A DNA stretch of 33,116 nt from Candidatus Sumerlaeota bacterium (GTDB lineage: Bacteria; Sumerlaeota; Sumerlaeia; MWCT01). The notes beneath the pieces are model-generated. The model was not told where the DNA came from. It was given only the letters and a program-made list of their open reading frames with translations, and ran no database searches. Shown here one piece after another: positions 10,501 through 23,058 of this stretch. Both the position numbers and the translations under genes were made by a program. Numbering within the stretch: the first letter of the stretch is position 1; every line of letters begins with the position of its first letter. Where the stretch lies: the NCBI GenBank assembly GCA_016931135.1, contig JAFGFK010000319.1:1-33116 (forward strand), read 5' to 3'.

Positions 10501-10755
10501 ATGAGAAAGAAACAGAAACAAGTGAAAGTGGAAAAGCAGGCAAAGGAAGAGAAGCAGGAGAAAAAGGTTGATTATGTCACGGTTGAGGAGCTGGCAAAAA
10601 ACCTGAAGGTGAGTATGCGCACGATCCAGCGGATTATTCACCGAAAGCAGCTTCCCGCCATCCGTATCGGCAGGCAATGGCGGTTCCGTAAAGAATGGGT
10701 GGATGAATGGCTGAAGAATAACACCATCAACCTGGAGTTAGAGGATATGGGATGA
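10501..10755 (+). CDS. excisionase-family helix-turn-helix DNA-binding protein
   Basis: The 84-residue protein has a highly charged Lys/Gln/Glu N-terminus (residues 1-24) and then a MerR/excisionase-type HTH domain (HTH_17, about residues 25-77). The domain core is YVTVEELAKNLKVSMRTIQR, followed by LPAIRIGRQWRFRKEWVDEWL, the wing and second helix seen in this family. A strong AAGGAGGAG site precedes the ATG. The stop overlaps the start of the next gene as ATGA (10752-10755), which points to translational coupling with the large ATPase. There is no integrase or phage gene nearby, so a recombination role is unlikely; a transcription factor is the better guess. The lysine-rich tail may add non-specific DNA contacts. 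Confidence 0.88.
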   Translation: MRKKQKQVKVEKQAKEEKQEKKVDYVTVEELAKNLKVSMRTIQRIIHRKQLPAIRIGRQWRFRKEWVDEWLKNNTINLELEDMG

Positions 10756-13700
10756 GGGAGTGCCCTCAGTGTTACAGCCCCATATTCGATCCACATGCGG
10801 AAATATGTTCCAGATGCGGATGGAAGATGACCAAAATCATAGCGATTGTACGCGGGGCTGAATCTTCGCAGAAAACGGGCAGGGAACAATGCCTCGATGA
10901 AGAGATGGCGGACTTTTGCCGTCAATTCGAGGAACGCGGCGTTTTTGTAACGGAAACGATTCTGCGAAAATCATTTGAAGTCTGGGAAAGTCTTCCAGAA
11001 GACATTCCGCGCGCAACCGTGATGATCCTCTCGCTGAACGGCGAATCGAGCGCCCGAACGGTTCCACGGGATGCGTGGGAAGTCTGCATCGACATCATAA
11101 TCCAAAAAAGCGGTATCATAGCCCAATCTTTTGAACAGGGGCTCTTATGTATTTTTGGAGCCCCTGTTTCCTTTGACCTCGATACGGAAGCCGCGGTTCA
11201 TGCCGCTTACTGTATAAAGGAATCCCTGGAACAAATCCCGGATGAAGAAGGGCGTTTGAATTTCCGGATCGGGATTGCCACGGGCGCCTTTCGGAAGCAA
11301 GGGAAAAAGAATCCTGATGGAAAAAACAGCGGTATGGAAGGCGGCGCAATAAGCGAGGCGGAAAAAATCCTTTCTACCGCTTCACTGAACGACATTGTCG
11401 TTTGTTCAACGACGCATTCCATCATTCGACGTTCTTTCAAGACATGCGCCGCGCCATCAAGCCCCGCGCCCGCCTTCAAAATCCTGGAGAGAACCCCCCC
11501 CGTTGAATTGCCGATCCGAATAGAAACCCCTTTTTGCGGGAGAGCGAAGGAATGGCAAACCCTGGATTCGTTTTTCAACGCTCCGGGTTCTCATGGGGGA
11601 AAGACGCTTCACCTCACAGGTGAAGAGGGCATGGGCAAAACCCGTTTGATTAAGGAATATTTAAATAAAAACAACCTGGAGAAGAACGCGATCTGGTGGG
11701 AAGCGGACTCCCTCCATAAACCGATTCTGCTTTTCCCTGTATTTCGTTGGTTGCGCCAACTTCTGAATATGGAAACCGGATCGGGAACGAAAAATGTCCG
11801 GAAATCCATAAGAAAATTCATGAAAAAATGGCCATGGGCGGATGACCATGACTGTCTTATTCTCGAATATATATTCGGCGTTCGGGAAGCCCTGGACGCC
11901 CTCCGGGGTTTTCCCCCGGAACGCATCCAGCGGCAAATCTTCGCCTTGCTCCATCAATTGACGCTTTCCCATTCGGATAATGAGAAAGGTCTTCTAATCA
12001 TAATCGATAACGCCCAATGGCTCGATTCCCTTACGATAAAATACTTGAAATTCATTGTCAGCGCTCCTGAGGCGTCGAAGATCACCCTTGTTTACATTCA
12101 TCCAAATCCGCGCAACGATGGGATTGAAATTTTACCCCATCATACGTTGCTCGAGATCGGTCCATTAGGTAAAAGGGATCGCGAGCATTTGTTCAAAACC
12201 ATCCTGCCCCTGGAGGATTTTCTGCCGGAGATACGAAAGGTTGCGCTTGCCCGTTCCAACGGGAATACGTTGTTTCTCGAGGAAATATCGCGCCTGATCC
12301 ATGAATATATCGGGGAGAATCCCGATCTATACGCCCAGACAGGCGCAAACAGAATAATCGAAATCATCCCCACCTCTTTGACGGAACTGATCCGAAAGCG
12401 GTTGGAAAAACTGGATGGACGAAGCCTCTCTGCGCTCCAGTGCGCCTCTTTACTGGGACTTGATTTTCTTTTCCCCCTTCTGGAGGCGTTCGATTCAATC
12501 CGGGAGGGATTGATGGATCATCTCCAGGCGCTTCTTGCCATGAATTATCTCCGGCAGCAACCGGAATCGGACGCTGTTCATTATTATTTCACCCATGCCC
12601 TTTTCCGGGATATTTCGTATTCCATGCTCATCGAGGAACAAAAGAAAAGGCTTCACGCAAATCTGGCGGATCACCTGGAAGAGATTTTCCGGAATCGACT
12701 GCAGGAATATTACGAGCTTCTCGCCTATCATTATTCCAAGGGGGGAGAGACAAACAAGGCGGTATATTATCTCGTAAAGGCGGGGGACCGTCAATCCGGT
12801 TTGGGGGAAGGTTCCAACGCCCTGGATAATTACAGGGAAGCCCTGGAGCTGTTGAAAACCCTTCCCGTTACGGATCAACGCCTGATTCTCATGGTAAGGG
12901 TATTAATCTGCGCGGCGCGGCTCCAGCGAATCCTGGGATTTTCGGATCAGGCGGAGGAAATGATATCCGCCGCGCTGGATTACGCCCGGAATCCAGGTAA
13001 TGAAAGACTCCTCCTGGAAGCGCGCCTGGAAAAAGCCATAGCCCTTCTATGGAATGGAAAGGGCGAAGAGGCGGAAGACATCCTGAAAGACGTCATCCTG
13101 GAAGCCACTCAAATGAACTGCTCCGTGACAAGAATGGCAGCGCTCAATTCACTGGGCGTATTACACTGGCAAAGGGGATCATTGGAACAAGCCCTTCGCG
13201 CATTTCAGGAACTGGCTGCGGGCAAATCGGAGACCTTTCATATCCAGGCGGACGCCTTTAACAATGCGGGGCTCGTTTACTGGAAATGGGGACAATACCC
13301 CGAGGCGCTGAAGGTTTTCAAACGCGCCATTCCCTTGAGGAGAAAAGTCGGGGATCACTTCGGATTATGCGCCACCCTGATGAATACAGGGATCATACAG
13401 GAACAAATAGGGCAGGTTCCCGCTGCGCGAAAATCGTATCAACTGGCTTTGGAACTTGCCCATAGAACGGGCTACATCCAGGGACTTGCCGCTCTGGAAT
13501 CCAATCTATCCAACCTGGAACGCCTGACGGGGGAATATCCTTCTGCATTGGAACATGCCCTGAAGGCTATCGAATATTCTGAAAATGCGGGGGATCCTTA
13601 TCTGGCGTCCATTGCCCATGAAAATACGGGCATGGCGTTTACGGCATTGGGAGAAAAGAAAAAGGCGCGTTCTCATTACAGGAAAGCCCTGGAAATTGCC

Positions 13701-14084
13701 ATGCAACACAAAAATACCGAGCGGGAGATCAGCGCCCGGATTTCCCTTCTGGAACTGGATTTGAGATCGCGAACTATGGGAAAAACCGCCATGGAAAAAA
13801 TCAATCAAGAGATCGATCGGGCGAAACAACGCAACTATACTGAGTTCATCCCGCGTTTGTATCGTATGAAAGGGCAAGCCCTGGAAATATTGCATCCGGG
13901 GAACGGGGAAAGCGCCAGGGAATTTCTCGAGCTGGCTTATGAATTATCACGGAACTCGGGCAGTATCTTCGAGGAAATCGAATCCGTACAGATACTTGTT
14001 TCCTGGGCGCAAACCTTCAGAAGAATGGATCTCAAACAAAAATGGGAAGCGTCCCTGAGAAAATTAAAAACCATCTTGACATAA
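10752..14084 (+). CDS. zinc-ribbon / degenerate cyclase-homology / STAND-like ATPase / TPR signalling protein
   Basis: Residues 4-22 form a zinc ribbon (CPQC-x11-CSRC). Residues about 85-250 follow the class III adenylate/guanylate cyclase fold: GLLCIFGAP, DTEAAVHAAYCIKESLEQ, FRIGIATG. However, the metal-binding Asp positions are lost (SLNGES where DxxGFT is expected, EQGLLCIF where GD-x-L-x-x-F is expected). Cyclase activity is therefore unlikely. An AAA/STAND-type ATPase follows, with Walker A GEEGMGKT (290-297) and Walker B LLIIIDNAQWLDS (414-426), where DE/DD is DN. From about 680 to the end run TPR-like helices (ALRAFQELAAG, ALKVFKRAIPLRRK, ARSHYRKALEIAM). The architecture matches cyclase-ATPase-TPR signalling proteins (LuxR/MalT-like relatives) without a DNA-binding domain; the coupled upstream HTH protein could supply that. 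No signal peptide is present, so it is cytoplasmic. Confidence 0.85.
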   Translation: MRECPQCYSPIFDPHAEICSRCGWKMTKIIAIVRGAESSQKTGREQCLDEEMADFCRQFEERGVFVTETILRKSFEVWESLPEDIPRATVMILSLNGESSARTVPRDAWEVCIDIIIQKSGIIAQSFEQGLLCIFGAPVSFDLDTEAAVHAAYCIKESLEQIPDEEGRLNFRIGIATGAFRKQGKKNPDGKNSGMEGGAISEAEKILSTASLNDIVVCSTTHSIIRRSFKTCAAPSSPAPAFKILERTPPVELPIRIETPFCGRAKEWQTLDSFFNAPGSHGGKTLHLTGEEGMGKTRLIKEYLNKNNLEKNAIWWEADSLHKPILLFPVFRWLRQLLNMETGSGTKNVRKSIRKFMKKWPWADDHDCLILEYIFGVREALDALRGFPPERIQRQIFALLHQLTLSHSDNEKGLLIIIDNAQWLDSLTIKYLKFIVSAPEASKITLVYIHPNPRNDGIEILPHHTLLEIGPLGKRDREHLFKTILPLEDFLPEIRKVALARSNGNTLFLEEISRLIHEYIGENPDLYAQTGANRIIEIIPTSLTELIRKRLEKLDGRSLSALQCASLLGLDFLFPLLEAFDSIREGLMDHLQALLAMNYLRQQPESDAVHYYFTHALFRDISYSMLIEEQKKRLHANLADHLEEIFRNRLQEYYELLAYHYSKGGETNKAVYYLVKAGDRQSGLGEGSNALDNYREALELLKTLPVTDQRLILMVRVLICAARLQRILGFSDQAEEMISAALDYARNPGNERLLLEARLEKAIALLWNGKGEEAEDILKDVILEATQMNCSVTRMAALNSLGVLHWQRGSLEQALRAFQELAAGKSETFHIQADAFNNAGLVYWKWGQYPEALKVFKRAIPLRRKVGDHFGLCATLMNTGIIQEQIGQVPAARKSYQLALELAHRTGYIQGLAALESNLSNLERLTGEYPSALEHALKAIEYSENAGDPYLASIAHENTGMAFTALGEKKKARSHYRKALEIAMQHKNTEREISARISLLELDLRSRTMGKTAMEKINQEIDRAKQRNYTEFIPRLYRMKGQALEILHPGNGESAREFLELAYELSRNSGSIFEEIESVQILVSWAQTFRRMDLKQKWEASLRKLKTILT

Positions 14085-14165
14085 ATAAGGGGTCTTGAAA
14101 ACCAGGAAATCTTGATCTTTTGTAAGTTTGACGGAAAACATCAATCCGGGCATCGGTGGGCAAAT

Positions 14166-17100
14166 ATGTTAGGAGACAAAATTTTCAAACTCCAACGGAA
14201 AGGATTGATTCTGGCATTTGCCTTTCTTGCTCCCTTCTGGATTTGGGGCAAAACCATAACCGTGGGACCCGGCGGGGATTATCCCGATATACAGACTGCC
14301 ATCATCCATTCAGTTGATGGAGATGAAATCATAGTTTCCCCGGGTCGTTACTATGAAAATATACTTATTTTCGGAATGAATGTCATCCTTAGATCGACAG
14401 ATCCCCAGAATTCCGATATCGTGGCAGCGACAATAATTGACGGCGATTTTTCCCAAACGGCGGTAACTTTCGACGGTTCAGAAGCCACATCCTGCGTTCT
14501 CACCGGTTTTACCATTACCAATGGCGAGGCGCATTTTGCGGGGGGAATATTCGGAAACGGAACTCTTGCCACTATTTCCCATAATCATATCACCACCAAT
14601 ACCGCCTATGGTTTCCCATGGCTCGGAGGCCAGGGAGGCGGGATTTACGACTGCGATGGATTGATCGAAAACAACGTCATTTCATTTAACTGGGCTTTGG
14701 GAGACGAAGCGGCGGGAGCGGGGCTCTCGGAATGCGACGGCGTGATAAGATACAACTCCATTTCAATGAATGACGAAGCGGATTACCTGGGAGAAGGAGG
14801 GGGCGTTTATAATTGCCAGGGAATTATAGAGAACAACGCCATCTTTTACAATTCCGCCCTTTCCGGCGGAGGGATTGCCCAATGCCACGGAACCATTCAA
14901 AACAACATGATAACAGATAATATGGCGGCGTCACGGGGCGGCGGTGTTTACGCCTCTCATGGAATCATACAAAACAATACGATCGCGTATAACTATTCCT
15001 GTGATTATGGAGGCGGACTTGAATACTGCGACGCTGCGATATGCAATTGCATCCTGTGGGGAAACGCTTCATGCGTGGGAACTCAAATCAATGAATGTTC
15101 CGATCCCTTGTATTGCTGTATTCAGGGTTGGAAAACCGGAGGACCGGGGAATTTCAACCACGCCCCGCGTTTCCTCGATCCGGAAACAGGAAATCTTCAT
15201 ATCGGCGTGGATTCCCCCTGTATCGATGCGGGCTGCAGCGTAACGCTCCCGATCGATTTTGACGGAAACGCCAGGCCGTTCGATGCCGTGGATTGGGAAA
15301 CCCGGGGTGATGGAACGAATTTCGACATAGGCGCCGATGAATTCGCGGGAGAGGCGCAACCCAGCCCCACCCCGACGCCTGCGCCCACTCCCCCGCCCTT
15401 TGCCTTTCCCTTCTGCGATGGTTTCGAAACGGGCGATCTATCTTATGGCGATTGGGAGTCAACGGGAAATGTGGCGATCGTATCAGAGCCCCGTCATGAA
15501 GGAGACTTCGCCGTTCAGATTTCCGGCGATCAGACCTCTCAAGCGCGCAAGAACTTCGGGGAAGACCTGTGGCAGGGAACTTACGCGATAACCATATCTC
15601 TTTATTCCACAAATAACGCCCAGGAAGGAATCAGCCTCGACCTCATGAGCGGCGATGAGGAAATTGTCCGAATTTCAATGTCTGAAATGGGTTCGATCAC
15701 CGCGACAAACGGAGAAGAAATCCCGATGCACATAATGTCCCATGAATCGAATACATGGTATGCCATATTACTCACATTGCGGCCCATGGAGGGGTTGTAT
15801 AATATCTCTGCGGGTTCTGCCGCCGGGCATGATTATGGGATCGCATGGAACCTGGTTATGGAGAAAGCGCCAGTTACCGGCTTGATCCTGAAATCCGGGG
15901 AGGCGACAGGATGCGCGGATTCTATCTGCGTGGATATTATTTCCCATTCACCGGATAAACCTGTCAATGTTTCGCCTCATGACGGCGCGCTGGATGTCAG
16001 CCTTGCGCCCCATCTTGCGGCAAGCCCTTACCAGGACCCTGATCCCGGGGATTTCCAGCGAACCTCTGAATGGCGGATTCTGGCAGATCCCAGCGCCCAG
16101 GGAACATCTCTCATCATATATACTACAAGGTTAAGCTCCGGCGCATTGACCGCCCTTTCCCTTCCCGAAGGAATACTGAACTATCAAAGCGCTTATTCCT
16201 GGCAGGTTCGATACCAGGACAATCATAATTCCTGGAGCGCCTGGTCGGATTTGACTTCATTCCATACCCAGGGGGAAATCATCCATCATCCCCCTCAAAA
16301 ACCGGAGAACTGGAATCCTTCTCCGGATCAGGAAGGGGTATCGCTTACGCCGCGCCTTGTCGGATCTCCCTTTCGGGATGAGGATGCGGGAGAATTCCTC
16401 ACCGGCGCAGAGTGGCGCATCATCCGGAAAACATACAGTAATACGGAACCGGTTTACAATTCCGGCTTGATATCCATCTCCGATACGATGCACAGAGTTC
16501 CCTCTGGTTATTTAAACGAAAATGAAACTTATGATTGGCAGGTTCGGTATCGTGACTCGCGGGGGGTTTACAGCGAATGGTCTCAGGAGACAAGGTTCTG
16601 TACTATATCGAGCGGGGAGGCGCCGACGCCGGATGGTCTCTATGCTGCGGCGGGCGCCCGTTCCGTATTCCTGCGATGGATCATGAGCGACGACTACCGC
16701 GTAATGGGATATAATCTTTACAGAGCAGAGCCTGATTCGGAATCTTTTGCCAGAATCAATTCCGAACCCATCCGGGGGAACGATTATCTGGATCAAAATC
16801 TCACGCCGTTCACCGTGTATCGCTATTGTCTGACTTCCGTCGCCACGGACGCAAAGGAAAGCGGCAAAACCGCTCCCGCTTTTGCCTGTGTGGGCGCTAT
16901 GCGAATCTTCATGTCAAACATCCAGGGAAAACCGGAAGAAATAATCAGCCAGATGATCACGCTGGATAATCCCAATGACATCGAGAACGAAAATCTCGAA
17001 TTAGCGATTGTTTATGATGAAGATATGCTGACGCCAATCGCAATCAACAAAACCCCTCTTACGGAAAGCTTCAATATTCTGAGCAATCTAAATACCGCGA

Positions 17101-18068
17101 ATGGTTTGTTGAATCTTTCAGGAACCAGCCCGGGAGCTGTCATCACAGGAGAAGGACATATCCTGGAATTACTCTACCAGGTCAATCCGGCGAGTGAAAT
17201 CTGGAGCCAATCGGACATGCTGTTCGATAACGTAATCCTGATGGCGAAATACGACAACGAACTGTTTGCGCTGGATGTGGATTCTACCAGCGTGGCGAAA
17301 ATGACCGTTTCCGCTCCCTTTATCCCGGGGGATTTGAACAGCGATGAGTTGATAGATATGCTTGACGCCACGATACTGCAAGGAATCATTACCGGGCAGA
17401 TTGCGCCCAGCGAACATCAGAAAAGAGCCGGGGATATCAATGGCGACTTTCTGATCGATATGATGGACCTTGTGATACTCATGAGGATGATTTCACAGGG
17501 AACTTCCGGCAATTATCCCCGCATAACGCATTGTATGAACAAAGATGCGGTTACGACCTATATATTCAGCCTGGGCGATCCGGAGTGGAGAGGGGATCTG
17601 GTTTTCATTCCCGTAGGGATCAATACAATGGAAGGAATCGCCGGTTTGGAAGTCGCCATAAATTATAATCCCGGCAATATGGAACTCGCCTTGATCAAAA
17701 AGGGCGCGGATATCATGGAAGGCAATTTTGATTATTACGAAAAGAACGGGCGGATGCGTCTCATCTTTGAAGGAGTTGCCGGAAATGAAACCGGGGAATT
17801 TATACTGGCGAACCTGGTTTTCCGCGCAAGAGGGGCGTGGAAACAATCTCCCATTACAATAGTAAAATTGAAACTGAGCGGAGAAAACGGGGAAAACCTC
17901 AACCGCATGAAAGATATAATAATCCACGATCTGATAATACGTCAAACCATCGTTATTTCATTGATAGATCACATACTGGGAAAAGGCTTTATTTCGCCAT
18001 CGGATGGGGACATCAACAGTGATAACGCAATCGACGTCAGCGATCTTGTCCGATTCATACAAGAGTGA
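14166..18068 (+). CDS. giant exported beta-helix protein with cohesin-like and dockerin modules
   Basis: The start is taken at ATG 14166 because it directly opens a signal peptide (LGDKIFKLQRK, then hydrophobic to WIWG near residue 28). An upstream in-frame TTG at 14112 would add 18 polar residues. Domains in order are: a pectate-lyase-like beta-helix (about 30-400) with repeated GGG(I/V)Y-x-C-x-G-x-IENN turns, ending in an anchor-Q-like SPCIDAG ... DIGADEF; a PTPTPAPTPPP linker; a concanavalin-like region (FETGDLSYGDWES); two Ig/fibronectin-like repeats that share DWQVRYRD/SWQVRYQD; a fibronectin domain; a cohesin-like domain (nt about 16900-17310); a dockerin pair (nt 17328-17495, GDLNSDELIDMLD and GDINGDFLIDMMD); a second cohesin-like domain; and a single dockerin half at the C-terminus (GDINSDNAIDVSD). 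Probably surface scaffold or adhesin. The next gene starts one base after the stop. Confidence 0.83.
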   Translation: MLGDKIFKLQRKGLILAFAFLAPFWIWGKTITVGPGGDYPDIQTAIIHSVDGDEIIVSPGRYYENILIFGMNVILRSTDPQNSDIVAATIIDGDFSQTAVTFDGSEATSCVLTGFTITNGEAHFAGGIFGNGTLATISHNHITTNTAYGFPWLGGQGGGIYDCDGLIENNVISFNWALGDEAAGAGLSECDGVIRYNSISMNDEADYLGEGGGVYNCQGIIENNAIFYNSALSGGGIAQCHGTIQNNMITDNMAASRGGGVYASHGIIQNNTIAYNYSCDYGGGLEYCDAAICNCILWGNASCVGTQINECSDPLYCCIQGWKTGGPGNFNHAPRFLDPETGNLHIGVDSPCIDAGCSVTLPIDFDGNARPFDAVDWETRGDGTNFDIGADEFAGEAQPSPTPTPAPTPPPFAFPFCDGFETGDLSYGDWESTGNVAIVSEPRHEGDFAVQISGDQTSQARKNFGEDLWQGTYAITISLYSTNNAQEGISLDLMSGDEEIVRISMSEMGSITATNGEEIPMHIMSHESNTWYAILLTLRPMEGLYNISAGSAAGHDYGIAWNLVMEKAPVTGLILKSGEATGCADSICVDIISHSPDKPVNVSPHDGALDVSLAPHLAASPYQDPDPGDFQRTSEWRILADPSAQGTSLIIYTTRLSSGALTALSLPEGILNYQSAYSWQVRYQDNHNSWSAWSDLTSFHTQGEIIHHPPQKPENWNPSPDQEGVSLTPRLVGSPFRDEDAGEFLTGAEWRIIRKTYSNTEPVYNSGLISISDTMHRVPSGYLNENETYDWQVRYRDSRGVYSEWSQETRFCTISSGEAPTPDGLYAAAGARSVFLRWIMSDDYRVMGYNLYRAEPDSESFARINSEPIRGNDYLDQNLTPFTVYRYCLTSVATDAKESGKTAPAFACVGAMRIFMSNIQGKPEEIISQMITLDNPNDIENENLELAIVYDEDMLTPIAINKTPLTESFNILSNLNTANGLLNLSGTSPGAVITGEGHILELLYQVNPASEIWSQSDMLFDNVILMAKYDNELFALDVDSTSVAKMTVSAPFIPGDLNSDELIDMLDATILQGIITGQIAPSEHQKRAGDINGDFLIDMMDLVILMRMISQGTSGNYPRITHCMNKDAVTTYIFSLGDPEWRGDLVFIPVGINTMEGIAGLEVAINYNPGNMELALIKKGADIMEGNFDYYEKNGRMRLIFEGVAGNETGEFILANLVFRARGAWKQSPITIVKLKLSGENGENLNRMKDIIIHDLIIRQTIVISLIDHILGKGFISPSDGDINSDNAIDVSDLVRFIQE

Positions 18069-18069
18069 C

Positions 18070-21000
18070 ATGAAATCACAAGAATTCAAATGGAACCGTC
18101 TTTTTGTTTTTTGCCTTCTCCTGGCAGGATTGCCCGGCGTCGTTTTTTGCGGGGACGCAATGGCATGGCAACGTCTTTTTGACGGATACTACGAAGGTCT
18201 GCCCTGTTTGATCTATAATGAAGCGGGAGATTACGCCGTACCGGCTCCCGGAGATCTCGATGGAGACGGCGATGAGGACATTCTTATCGGTCATCAAAGC
18301 GGCTATCCCCGTTATATCCGAAACGACGGAACCAGCGGCGTTCCCTGCTGGTCGTTCATCTCTGAATCGTATGAGATTCCCCCTCTTACCAGCCCTCCCG
18401 TTCGCACAGCTCCCTTTCTTGCCGATGGGGATCAGGATGGGGATCCAGACCTGATCCTGGGATTGGAGAACGGATATATCGCTTATTACCGGAACGAAGG
18501 AACAGCCGCCGCGCCAATCTGGAACCTTGTCACGGAAAACTGGACGGGAAGATCGGGCGGGAAAAACGCCCGGCCGTGCCTCACGGACATCGATGCGGAT
18601 GGGGACGGTGACCTTTTCGTGGGAACCCAGTCAGGACACATTTCCTTTTATCGCAATGACGCAAATCCCGGAGAATCGCCCGTATGGACATGGCAATTGG
18701 ATAATTTCATGAACATCGATGCAGGGGCGGATGCGTCTCCCTGTTTTACGGATATCAACGGCGATGGCTTGACGGATTTGTTTGTCGGGAATTCAAACGG
18801 TGACATCAGTTATTACAAAGGGTATGGAGAGCCCCATCTCCTTTTTTTCACCCTGGTTACCGATCAATATGAAAACATAAAAGCCCCGGGAAACGCCGCG
18901 CCTGTTTTTTTTGATTCGGGCGACCATGGAACGCGGAACCTTCTGGTCGGTTCCTTTGCGGGTTCTGTTCAGATGTTCCCCAATCACGGTACGGTTTCCC
19001 TGCCTGTTTTCGGAAATCCATCCGATGTCTGGCTCGGTTTGGATACCGGTTCGGAATCCGCCCCGGAGCTTGCGGATATCGACAACGACGGGGATCCGGA
19101 TTTCTTCATTGGCGCCTTCAATCCCGCGCTTTCCCATGAATGGGGAATCCGACATTACCATAACAAGGGAACTCCCTGGATTTCCGATTGGCATCGGGAA
19201 ACGGATTTTTTCATCTCGCGTTTCGAGGAATTTACCGCGCCCCGGTTTGTGGATATCGATGCAGATGGCGACCTCGATCTGTTCACGGGAGGATTTTCCG
19301 GTAACGTCCTTTTCTTCAGAAATGCCGGAACGGCGAATTTCCCCTCTTATCAACCGGAACCAGCCGGCGATATCCCTTCCCCGGGGCTATGCGCAAAGCC
19401 CGCCTTTGGGGATATGGATCATGACCTCGATTACGATCTGTACATAGCCTTTACCGATCTCGGCGTCGGGCGCGTATATTATTACGAGAATTCCGGCAAC
19501 AGTGAATCCCCCTCCTGGGCGCCTCCTGTCGATTGCTCAACGATATTCAATCCCGGGCAGCTCCCCGCTATCGATACGGGCGATCTTGACTGCGACGGGT
19601 TGAATGACGTGATATGCGCATGGGGAGATGACTCTGTAACCATATATTATGGCGAAGCCCCCGCCTCCCCTTTTTCTTTTTCAACTCCTATGAACCTAAA
19701 AGTTCAGGGAAATATGCTCCATCCCGTTCCATGCATTTCCGATATAAACGGAGACATGCGTCCTGATATCATACTGGGAGGAACTTATGGAGGAATTCGC
19801 GTCTATATCAATCCTGCAAAAAACGCGTCGGTTGAACCCCATCATGCGACGATTCCAACAGAAAGTCCTCTTCAACTTTCCGCTCCTTCAATATTCCCCG
19901 GCGTATGGGAATTCATCCGAAATGAAAGCGGCGGGACTCTCGATCCTTCCACGGGAGAATACGTCTCCGGGCACAATCGCGGGAGAGATATTATCCGGGT
20001 AAAGGACAGTTTCACCAGCTGGGGCATATCCTGCGTCAATGTCATATCTCCGGATCAGATTTCTCTCGCGGGGAAAGCCGTGATCATGGCGGGACGCAAA
20101 GAAAACGACCCTCTCTGGAACACAACGAACAAACTTGCGAATGATGTCTATCGAACGCTTCTTTTTCTCGGATTTTCCAAAGACAACATTTATTATTTGA
20201 ATCCGGAGGCATCGCAGGATGTTGACGCCAACGGAGATTCCGAAGACGATATCGACGCCCCCTCCACTCTGGCAAACATCGAGCAGGGACTTGGCGTATT
20301 CGCCGCAGGAAGCCCGGAGATTCTGATATACCTGATCGATCATGGCGACGCATCCCCGGAAGGACGAAACGGATTCATCCGGTGCAACGAAGAAGATATC
20401 CTTTACGCCTGTCATCTGGATGAGTTGCTGGACAATCTGCAAGAAAAGGACAATGTAACGACCATCACCCTTGTTGTGGATTGCTGCATGGCGGAATCTT
20501 TTATGCGGGAGTGTTCGGGAGAGTCAAGGATTGTGATTACATCCACAAACCTTTCCCATCCAGCGTTTTTTGCCGCTGGAGGCTTGATTTCCTTTACCCA
20601 TGGATTCCTGAGCGCCCTGCAACAGGGGCATAGCGCCGGAGAGGCGTTTTGCATCGCCTCGGGCGCTATGGATCGTTTCCAAAAACCGCAAATGGATGAT
20701 GACGGCGACGGCTTTTATGTTCCCGGAAAAGACGGCGATACAGCAGACCACAAGATAATCGGAAGCTCCTTCATTGCCGGGGCGGATCATCCCTTCATCG
20801 ATCTGATCTCTCCCAACCAGGTTCTTCATGATGGCAAAACCAGCTGCACCCTGTGGGCATCCGGCATTATCAGCTCCTGCCTTATCGAGGGCGTATGGGC
20901 ATCCATCAAATCCCCCTCCCCATCTTCATCCTCCGGAACCTGCCCTTCAGAACCTGTTCCGAATCTGGGATTTCTCGATCTATCCTGGAATCCCATAAAC

Positions 21001-23058
21001 AACCGGTATGAAGCCACCACAGATACCTTTACTTTACCTGGAATATATTCGGTGAATATATATGCGCGGGATATCTGGGGCTCCCTTTCCCCGCCTAAAC
21101 AAACATACATCAGCCAGCCGCATCTGAAAGAAGAAATGATCATTGTATGCGGAGATGGCGATTACGCCCCTGATTCCCCCTGGAGCTGGATCGAGTCTCT
21201 CTCCCTGGAGGCTTACCAGACCGCCCGTTCAAAATGGTTCTCCGATGAAAAAATCCATTTTCTTTCATCATCATCCGATTCCAGGGTGGACAGTCCCCCA
21301 ACCAGACAATCCCTCTTCGATTCCATCGGTGAAGCGGGAGGCGCCGACAAACTCATCCTGTATATGATCGGCAAGGGAAGCGATACGATGTTCGACATGG
21401 ATGGAGACGGGGAGGATGGGGACGATCTGACGCCTGCAGAACTCGACGCCGCCCTGGATTCTCTGCAAAAAACTCAATCTCTTATTGTTGTCGTGATATT
21501 GGATTTCACTGGATCAGGAGGTTGGTTATCTTCCCTGATCCCTCCTGATGGAAAACGCAGGATCGTGATATCCTCCTCTTCCATTGGGGAGATTTCCCAT
21601 TGCCTCGAGGGGGGGGTGATTTCCTTTTCCGGATTTTTCTTCGGAAAGATGTTGAACGGTTCAGGTATGGGAGACGCCTTCAACTGGGCAAGAACGGCGA
21701 TCAGGACGATTACTGACAGATTTCAAAATCCTCAACTGGATGACAACGGATCGGGAACCTGCGATCATGAGGATGGATATCTACTGGAAATGACCGGGAT
21801 CGGGGCGGAAAATATCATTCATAATCAGGGTCCCGTAATAGAAAACTATGCAAAGGATATCATGGTTGATTCTCCTCAAATGCTTCTCTGGGCTTCGGAT
21901 ATATGGGATGCGGACGGAATTGAAGAGGTTTTCGCTATTGTGATGGAATCCGGCGATCATTCGGGAAGTCCAGCCACGGAAAAAATTCCCCTGTATTTCA
22001 ATGATGCAAGCAGCCGATGGGAGAACGCATTTTCAGGATTCGATTCCGAAAACGGGAATGTGATTCTATACATGGCGAGAGACGGGAAGGGATTTTTATC
22101 CAAACCTTATCAAACGAGATATTTGGGGAGGAAGGGGGAGGATATATACGACAAACTGTACCGGGATGATCACCCCCGAACCACGCGGAATTTCTTTTCC
22201 ATTGATAATTTCAGCCAGATTCACAATTTCTGGAAACCCGGCGATGAAGACTGGGCGGTTTTCAATGCAGACGCGGGAATGTCCTATTCCATTCAGGCGA
22301 TCAGCCAGGGGGAGCGTTGCGACGCCGCTCTTACGATGTTTCACGAATCGGATATGAATCATCCTCTGATCGAGCAGGATGACTGGGGATGCGGCGGGCT
22401 GGATGAACTGATTTCCTGGCATTCCGGCGCCCTTTCCGGCGCCATATTTGTCAGGGTGAGCCAGAGCCGGTTCTACCCTGGAATCAATGGAGAAGATACT
22501 ACCTACACCCTGACCATCGGAGGGGAATGGGGACCCAATGCCGGATTGGCTACCATTTCAGGAACCCAATGTTATATTGGACCTGAGGGCGGATTGTTAC
22601 AAGCTGGCGCTTCGGGGATTTATACAAAACCCGCGGCGAATATCCCGCCAGACGCATTACCGGCTGCAATGGAATTCATCATCGACGATCCGGGCGATAT
22701 AGGAAACAATCCCTACTTTGAATACACAAAGGCGTGGCTGGATCAGAATCCCACCAATGCAAGCATTGTTCAGATTCTGACCCAGGCGCCGGTATGTTTT
22801 GAACATCCTGTCACATTGACGATGCAGTTCATAGATGACGGACCGGCGCAGGGGGGATTCACTATAGACGATTTGCCGGAAGGTCATGAGCCCTCTTCCA
22901 TGCGGATTCATACATGGAACCAAAGCAAATGGGTATTACTTTCGGGAAATCAAACGGTAGCGGAAGATACGGTATGGATTACCCTGGAATCCCTGGGGAC
23001 AGGACTTTTCGCCGTTGCTCCCATTCAAATCAAGCCGAATTCCTGGATATTTTACTAG
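18070..23058 (+). CDS. giant exported FG-GAP/VCBS-repeat protein with tandem C13 (legumain-like) peptidase and pseudo-peptidase domains
   Basis: ATG 18070 is chosen because a signal peptide follows at once (KSQEFKWNR, then hydrophobic to FCG). The 66 extra upstream bases overlap the previous gene's end. Residues about 55-585 contain roughly ten FG-GAP-like repeats with Ca-binding D-x-D-x-D-G loops (GDLDGDGDEDILIG, TDIDADGDGDLFVG, VDIDADGDLDLFTG). Residues about 660-905 resemble peptidase C13, with the catalytic pair H758 (YLIDHGD) and a cysteine in VDCCMAESF (C806 best placed, C805 adjacent). An Ig-like segment follows, then a second copy at about 1020-1200 with K1102 at the His position (YMIGKGS) and T1147 at the Cys position (ILDFTGSGG). 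Both copies share RFQ(K/N)PQ(M/L)DD. The C-terminus has a PPC-like beta domain (KPGDEDWAVFNADAG). Probably a secreted protease or adhesin, co-expressed with the gene one base upstream. Confidence 0.85.
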   Translation: MKSQEFKWNRLFVFCLLLAGLPGVVFCGDAMAWQRLFDGYYEGLPCLIYNEAGDYAVPAPGDLDGDGDEDILIGHQSGYPRYIRNDGTSGVPCWSFISESYEIPPLTSPPVRTAPFLADGDQDGDPDLILGLENGYIAYYRNEGTAAAPIWNLVTENWTGRSGGKNARPCLTDIDADGDGDLFVGTQSGHISFYRNDANPGESPVWTWQLDNFMNIDAGADASPCFTDINGDGLTDLFVGNSNGDISYYKGYGEPHLLFFTLVTDQYENIKAPGNAAPVFFDSGDHGTRNLLVGSFAGSVQMFPNHGTVSLPVFGNPSDVWLGLDTGSESAPELADIDNDGDPDFFIGAFNPALSHEWGIRHYHNKGTPWISDWHRETDFFISRFEEFTAPRFVDIDADGDLDLFTGGFSGNVLFFRNAGTANFPSYQPEPAGDIPSPGLCAKPAFGDMDHDLDYDLYIAFTDLGVGRVYYYENSGNSESPSWAPPVDCSTIFNPGQLPAIDTGDLDCDGLNDVICAWGDDSVTIYYGEAPASPFSFSTPMNLKVQGNMLHPVPCISDINGDMRPDIILGGTYGGIRVYINPAKNASVEPHHATIPTESPLQLSAPSIFPGVWEFIRNESGGTLDPSTGEYVSGHNRGRDIIRVKDSFTSWGISCVNVISPDQISLAGKAVIMAGRKENDPLWNTTNKLANDVYRTLLFLGFSKDNIYYLNPEASQDVDANGDSEDDIDAPSTLANIEQGLGVFAAGSPEILIYLIDHGDASPEGRNGFIRCNEEDILYACHLDELLDNLQEKDNVTTITLVVDCCMAESFMRECSGESRIVITSTNLSHPAFFAAGGLISFTHGFLSALQQGHSAGEAFCIASGAMDRFQKPQMDDDGDGFYVPGKDGDTADHKIIGSSFIAGADHPFIDLISPNQVLHDGKTSCTLWASGIISSCLIEGVWASIKSPSPSSSSGTCPSEPVPNLGFLDLSWNPINNRYEATTDTFTLPGIYSVNIYARDIWGSLSPPKQTYISQPHLKEEMIIVCGDGDYAPDSPWSWIESLSLEAYQTARSKWFSDEKIHFLSSSSDSRVDSPPTRQSLFDSIGEAGGADKLILYMIGKGSDTMFDMDGDGEDGDDLTPAELDAALDSLQKTQSLIVVVILDFTGSGGWLSSLIPPDGKRRIVISSSSIGEISHCLEGGVISFSGFFFGKMLNGSGMGDAFNWARTAIRTITDRFQNPQLDDNGSGTCDHEDGYLLEMTGIGAENIIHNQGPVIENYAKDIMVDSPQMLLWASDIWDADGIEEVFAIVMESGDHSGSPATEKIPLYFNDASSRWENAFSGFDSENGNVILYMARDGKGFLSKPYQTRYLGRKGEDIYDKLYRDDHPRTTRNFFSIDNFSQIHNFWKPGDEDWAVFNADAGMSYSIQAISQGERCDAALTMFHESDMNHPLIEQDDWGCGGLDELISWHSGALSGAIFVRVSQSRFYPGINGEDTTYTLTIGGEWGPNAGLATISGTQCYIGPEGGLLQAGASGIYTKPAANIPPDALPAAMEFIIDDPGDIGNNPYFEYTKAWLDQNPTNASIVQILTQAPVCFEHPVTLTMQFIDDGPAQGGFTIDDLPEGHEPSSMRIHTWNQSKWVLLSGNQTVAEDTVWITLESLGTGLFAVAPIQIKPNSWIFY

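Follow-up and report, generated by a model that had tools for sequence, protein, structure and literature searches.

Within the window, as we call the whole analysed stretch of 33,116 nucleotides from Candidatus Sumerlaeota bacterium, one gene encodes a large protein with two C13-type (legumain-like) domains in tandem. The first copy has the intact His/Cys dyad of the family, and the second is an ancient, maintained pseudopeptidase. The reading that we favour, and for which we judge the case to be about evenly balanced, is that the protein is an exported cysteine peptidase of the C13/legumain type that carries a pseudopeptidase partner, copy 2, in the same chain.

Gene, domain order and neighbourhood

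The tandem protease gene is the open reading frame at 18004-23058 (1684 codons) of the forward (+) strand, on which all the parts of this gene described below are located. In its longest form it opens at the ATG at 18004. Met23, at 18070, is the preferred start, because the stop of the upstream open reading frame (18068) falls just before it. This start gives a protein of 1662 amino acids and places a hydrophobic, signal-like stretch directly after the initiator methionine. Read directly from the sequence, the likely start and signal-like peptide (MKSQEFKWNRLFVFCLLLAGLPGVVFCGDAMA) occupy 18070-18165. Residue numbers in this text count from the ATG at 18004. The preliminary description counted from Met23, so that its numbers are smaller by 22, and its H758, C805/C806, K1102 and T1147 are H780, C827/C828, K1124 and T1169 here. 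The motifs were found where it had placed them, at 20050-21830 (residues 683-1276).

The signal-like start is followed by an FG-GAP beta-propeller, C13 copy 1, an Ig-like domain, the C13-like copy 2, a second Ig-like domain and a C-terminal region. The propeller (18211-19860, limits approximate) has about nine to ten repeats; the earlier count of ten is about right, and Pfam FG-GAP_3 (E 8.5e-37) finds nine stretches. The two Ig-like domains, at 20800-21123 and 21841-22128, were delimited by AlphaFold (AF2) secondary structure; the first is all-beta and aligns with the second. The C-terminal region (22129-23052) does not have a Pfam name, and is conserved at 43-48% identity in three relatives (L035, L036 and L038). 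The signal-like start and the exported-type domains suggest that the protein is exported, and it may be located on the surface. A frameshift or assembly artefact was ruled out, as the arrangement of live and dead copies is open in frame and recurs in several genomes.

The protein ends in NSWIFY (23038-23055), which fits the W-x-x-[aromatic or charged] tail of many related exported-type proteins. A C-terminal W-x-x-[Y/F/R/K/E] tail is present in about 14 of 23 C13 proteins, the window protein included. It also ends other large exported-type proteins, for example the one encoded at L083:10551-16094 (RNWVLYR), and is rare among other open reading frames. This tail could serve as a sorting signal.

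The gene that immediately precedes the tandem C13 gene encodes a protein with cohesin and dockerin domains, both in the window (14112-18068) and in G003, a genome of the same taxonomic order (L037:2-1129). The arrangement suggests that the cohesin/dockerin gene and the tandem C13 gene are a conserved pair. Further upstream in the window (10752-14084) there is a gene for an AAA-ATPase/TPR protein (P0003) with a zinc-ribbon-like N-terminus. In 12 Sumerlaeota genomes, 21 matches to this protein were counted, of which seven share a contig with a C13 gene, adjoining it or one gene apart (the window, L041, L042, L046, L083, L124 and L140), against fewer than one expected by chance in a rough hand estimate. 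At L083 (G005), the gene at 10551-16094 encodes a subtilase (S8) with FG-GAP repeats, and lies between the tandem C13 and AAA-TPR genes.

Intact and lost catalytic dyads in a duplicated unit

Copy 1 (residues 690-932, 20071-20799) was recognized by Pfam, by an HMM of the family (E 1.8e-84) and by the fold search with the tandem model. It exceeds the cut-off of Pfam Peptidase_C13 (38.2 versus 22.8 bits), with the best stretch at residues 772-851. Pfam and fold thus support the assignment of copy 1 to family C13 and clan CD that had been proposed from the motifs. Alignment of the catalytic columns points to His780 (20341-20343) and Cys828 (20485-20487) as the predicted catalytic residues. According to the alignment columns and the AF2 strands, their order is that of clan CD, with H780-G first and C828 following after 48 residues. 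The preliminary description had left the choice between the two neighbouring cysteines open. In dyad-intact relatives, the column before the nucleophile varies (C, S, M, Y, T or A), and the nucleophile column is always Cys. Hence, the second Cys of the CC pair, C828, should be the nucleophile.

Copy 2 (residues 1044-1279, 21133-21840) is recognized by the family HMM (E 9.4e-73), by AF2 and by Foldseek. It has Lys1124 (21373-21375) at the catalytic His column and Thr1169 (21508-21510) at the catalytic Cys column, 45 residues apart. The catalytic sites of the two copies were equated by column alignment and by strand position, and both place the Lys and Thr as originally proposed: in the AF2 tandem model, each of these residues is located two residues beyond a core strand, H780 and K1124 after one strand and C828 and T1169 after the next. 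The reported spacings of 48 and 45 residues were measured again with the same values, and the shared RFQ(K/N)PQ(M/L)DD motif starts at residue 891 in copy 1 (RFQKPQMDD) and at residue 1239 in copy 2 (RFQNPQLDD). Beside the lost His, copy 2 has an EF-hand-like acidic loop in the alignment (DMDGDGEDGDDL, 21394-21429), which appears as DxDGDG in L033-L035.

In the profile search, copy 2 of the window protein alone did not match Pfam Peptidase_C13, and one of seven copy-2 sequences did (E 1.9e-4). Nevertheless, copy 2, which lacks the dyad, is predicted to retain the clan CD fold. Neither an intact dyad in copy 2 nor a copy 1 outside clan CD, which would have contradicted the preliminary description, was found. 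An AF2 model of copy 2 with its Ig-like domain, for which the input alignment was restricted to copy-2 sequences, has a pLDDT of 78.6 and a pTM of 0.80. It matches PIG-K, asparaginyl endopeptidase 1 (AEP1), legumain and caspases 3, 7 and 8 with a Foldseek probability of 1.00, at TM-scores by target length that are moderate, mostly 0.4-0.6.

Copy 1 with its Ig-like domain and copy 2 with its own can be aligned over 305 residues (27% identity, E 5e-23). The internal duplication that had been recognized in the peptidase domains is therefore real, but the duplicated unit is larger than previously thought: since the alignment spans the Ig-like domain, the unit consists of C13 and Ig domains together, and comprises about 350 residues. 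In the tandem as modelled by AlphaFold (pLDDT 81, pTM 0.58), strands and helices follow one another in the same order in both copies. The model resembles PIG-K, plant asparaginyl endopeptidases, legumain and MALT1, and the top matches in the fold search were 7wld_K, 6l4y and 7f5q. No significant relative emerged from the PDB by sequence search, so that fold comparison alone brought up these matches. A search of viral contigs and plasmids returned no match.

Relatives and the age of the inactivation

Matches are present in 14 of 40 genomes of the phylum Sumerlaeota, and a family HMM trained on the copies finds 73 domains in the proteins fetched. Both catalytic sites can be read in 12 tandem proteins (the window protein, L033-L038, L041-L044 and L113). 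Copy 1 is intact in 11 of these, with L041 as the exception, and copy 2 in none. Two further proteins (L039 and L040) are outside this count, as they are cut off by the contig edge behind the position where copy 2 has lost its His. The proposal of a duplication with loss of catalysis is thus borne out across the relatives: the duplication is old, is shared by many of them and is not peculiar to the window protein. The full-length single-copy relatives in the phylum (L045, L046, L047, L049, L050, L051 and L116-L120) all have the intact dyad. Identity to the window protein falls to 36-39% at the lowest over the tandem, and is lower still in the single-copy relatives.

A tree of 46 domains places the first and the second copies of each tandem type in groups of their own. 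Support is weak for the copy-1 group of type I (61/91), and at least 97 for the other groups. The separate grouping implies that the inactive state is ancestral to each tandem type, so that the 12 pairs go back to one or two losses rather than to twelve independent events. For the copy-2 groups of types I and II, the comparison of one clade with two gave an AU p value of 0.158. In a wider tree, the dead copies that come last in types I and III are joined with moderate support (94/78). For the single pair L033 and L034, dN/dS is 0.31 in copy 1 and 0.32 in copy 2. Copy 2 thus forms clades of its own and, in this pair, is constrained like copy 1.

Other arrangements of the array exist. In type II tandems (L043 and L113 were scanned), a WD40-type propeller takes the place of the FG-GAP propeller, and the order of copies is also live, then dead. 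In L041, two copies are retained, neither of them with the dyad. Another phylum contains relatives of L108 with three C13-like copies, and an LVIVD propeller was demonstrated for L108 itself. Among these, L153 and L154 are dead-live-dead. In L155, the first copy has kept the His and lost the Cys, the second is live and the third is dead. L108 has three copies and no complete dyad, nor is a complete dyad present in the two copies of L112, which belongs to a further phylum. Arrays in which a single live copy has dead neighbours are thus common, but not universal.

Some C13-like proteins (L065, L066, L082, L096, L098 and L105) have kept the His and have Ser at the Cys column (e.g. INAASCSAGF); those that were placed in the tree cluster in a clade of their own. 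At L114 (G017:C797; 2-724, 728-3577, 3640-6576) and at L140, two C13 genes end right behind the Cys motif (CCYSGGFVEACREE, then the stop), and the next gene encodes a signal-like peptide and then the remaining half of the domain (GKRIVIAS...). The break is where the p20/p10 junction falls in caspases. The split genes could be due to gene fission or to an assembly effect.

Possible roles of the inactive copy and comparison with known systems

The analysis establishes the domain order, a clan CD fold for the tandem as well as for copy 2 by itself, the dyad states, their conservation in relatives and the constraint on copy 2. We infer export, a surface location, catalysis by copy 1, a role in cis for copy 2 and a substrate. 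The preliminary interpretation is thus supported in part, as to family, fold, duplication and loss of catalysis; its surface location, an active copy 1 and regulation or binding by copy 2 are predictions. Judging from the residues at the catalytic columns, copy 1 (H780/C828) is most likely the sole site able to cleave. By analogy with the A and B subdomains of gingipain, copy 2 would most likely pack against copy 1 or help to hold it, or hold its substrate; with a pTM of 0.58 for the tandem model, the contact between the copies is putative. The N-terminal propeller most likely supplies binding to the target or to a surface. Two observations speak against this reading. The single-copy relatives have intact dyads and no pseudopeptidase copy, so that a partner is not generally needed, and L041, with two copies, and L108, with three, have no complete dyad, so that the arrays have some value without protease activity.

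The main rival explanation is that copy 2, as a module in its own right, binds calcium, a glycan or a protein and leaves copy 1 unaffected as an ordinary exported peptidase. We consider this rather unlikely, but it has to be taken seriously. In copy 2 of the window protein and its closest relatives, the DxDGDG acidic loop was gained next to the lost His, and in L041, L108 and L112 dyad-incomplete copies occur without a live partner. However, the loop was not found in copy 2 of L037, L039 and L042, and the tandem relatives in Sumerlaeota nearly always have a live copy, which a free-standing binder would not need.

The proteins without a complete dyad also bear on a second alternative, that neither copy works and the protein serves on the surface or in adhesion, built from old peptidase folds, with the dyad of copy 1 conserved by chance or for structural reasons. 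The lack of a complete dyad throughout L041, L108 and L112 fits this explanation, as does the adhesion-like architecture of the remainder of the protein. Yet copy 1 has the dyad in 11 of 12 proteins, and so does every complete single-copy relative in the phylum, despite identities of 36-39% or lower, and we therefore regard this alternative as improbable. A third possibility, that copy 2 arose by a recent duplication, has no role and is decaying, would account for the loss of its dyad. It is very improbable, because copy 2 is full-length and has kept its fold, and it is contradicted by the supported clade of copy 2 across genera and by its dN/dS, which is like that of copy 1 in the pair tested.

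The components of the preferred reading, an exported peptidase with a pseudopeptidase partner in cis, have known counterparts. Like legumain, asparaginyl endopeptidase and the GPI transamidase subunit PIG-K/GPI8, which are C13 enzymes of clan CD, copy 1 matches the family profile and has His-Gly before Cys, and PIG-K and legumain/AEP head the fold matches. Unlike these, it is bacterial, follows a beta-propeller in an exported-type protein of 1662 residues, is duplicated together with an Ig domain, and is accompanied by an inactive second copy. Identity to the solved C13 structures is about 10-15%.

The paracaspase MALT1, a eukaryotic, intracellular protein, has a single caspase-like domain. 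As here, this domain is directly followed by an Ig domain (Ig3), and the protein is among the top fold matches of the tandem model. The MALT1 caspase domain folded poorly without Ig3, as recounted in PMC4626109. Gingipain R (C25) combines an inactive subdomain A, an active subdomain B and an IgSF domain (PMC4626109). The inactivated domain precedes the active caspase domain and forms a covalently linked dimer with it, according to the same source. The window protein likewise has live and dead caspase-like domains and an Ig-type domain in one chain, but the live copy comes first, an Ig domain separates the copies, and copy 1 is of the C13 type; C25 was not among the Pfam or NCBIfam matches of the protein.

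Bacterial pseudo-orthocaspases, which contain a p20 domain, have His-Tyr and Cys-Ser changes (PMC6426788). They are also bacterial clan CD pseudopeptidases that have kept the fold, but have Tyr and Ser where copy 2 has Lys and Thr, and copy 2 is a dead C13-type domain behind a live one. The window protein did not match Pfam C14, and its NCBIfam caspase match is below the threshold (13.1 versus 140 bits). Caspase-8 and c-FLIP-L, finally, are live and dead clan CD partners as well, and a chain of their complex (3h11_B) is among the fold matches of copy 2; unlike the copies in the window protein, they are two separate polypeptides, and are found in animals.

Peptidases of family C13, pseudopeptidases of clan CD and pairs of live and dead partners are thus each already known. 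In the open-access literature searched, we found bacterial C13 peptidases little described and none with tandem live and dead copies, and found no bacterial C13 arrays of the live-dead or dead-live-dead kind behind beta-propellers. Tentatively, we suggest that proteins with a propeller (FG-GAP, WD40 or LVIVD) and a C13-like array may be widespread, unrecognised exported peptidases, in which exactly one copy would be live and one or two dead copies would act as regulators or substrate holders, and that such arrays may have arisen more than once, in live-dead and dead-live-dead form.

Proteins in which a conserved pseudopeptidase accompanies a live legumain-like enzyme, found in two phyla and with different propellers, provide a comparison set for the dead partners of clan CD peptidases, which is relevant to gingipain A/B and to caspase-8/c-FLIP. 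With single-copy, live-dead and dead-live-dead forms at hand, the role of the dead partners becomes testable in vitro.
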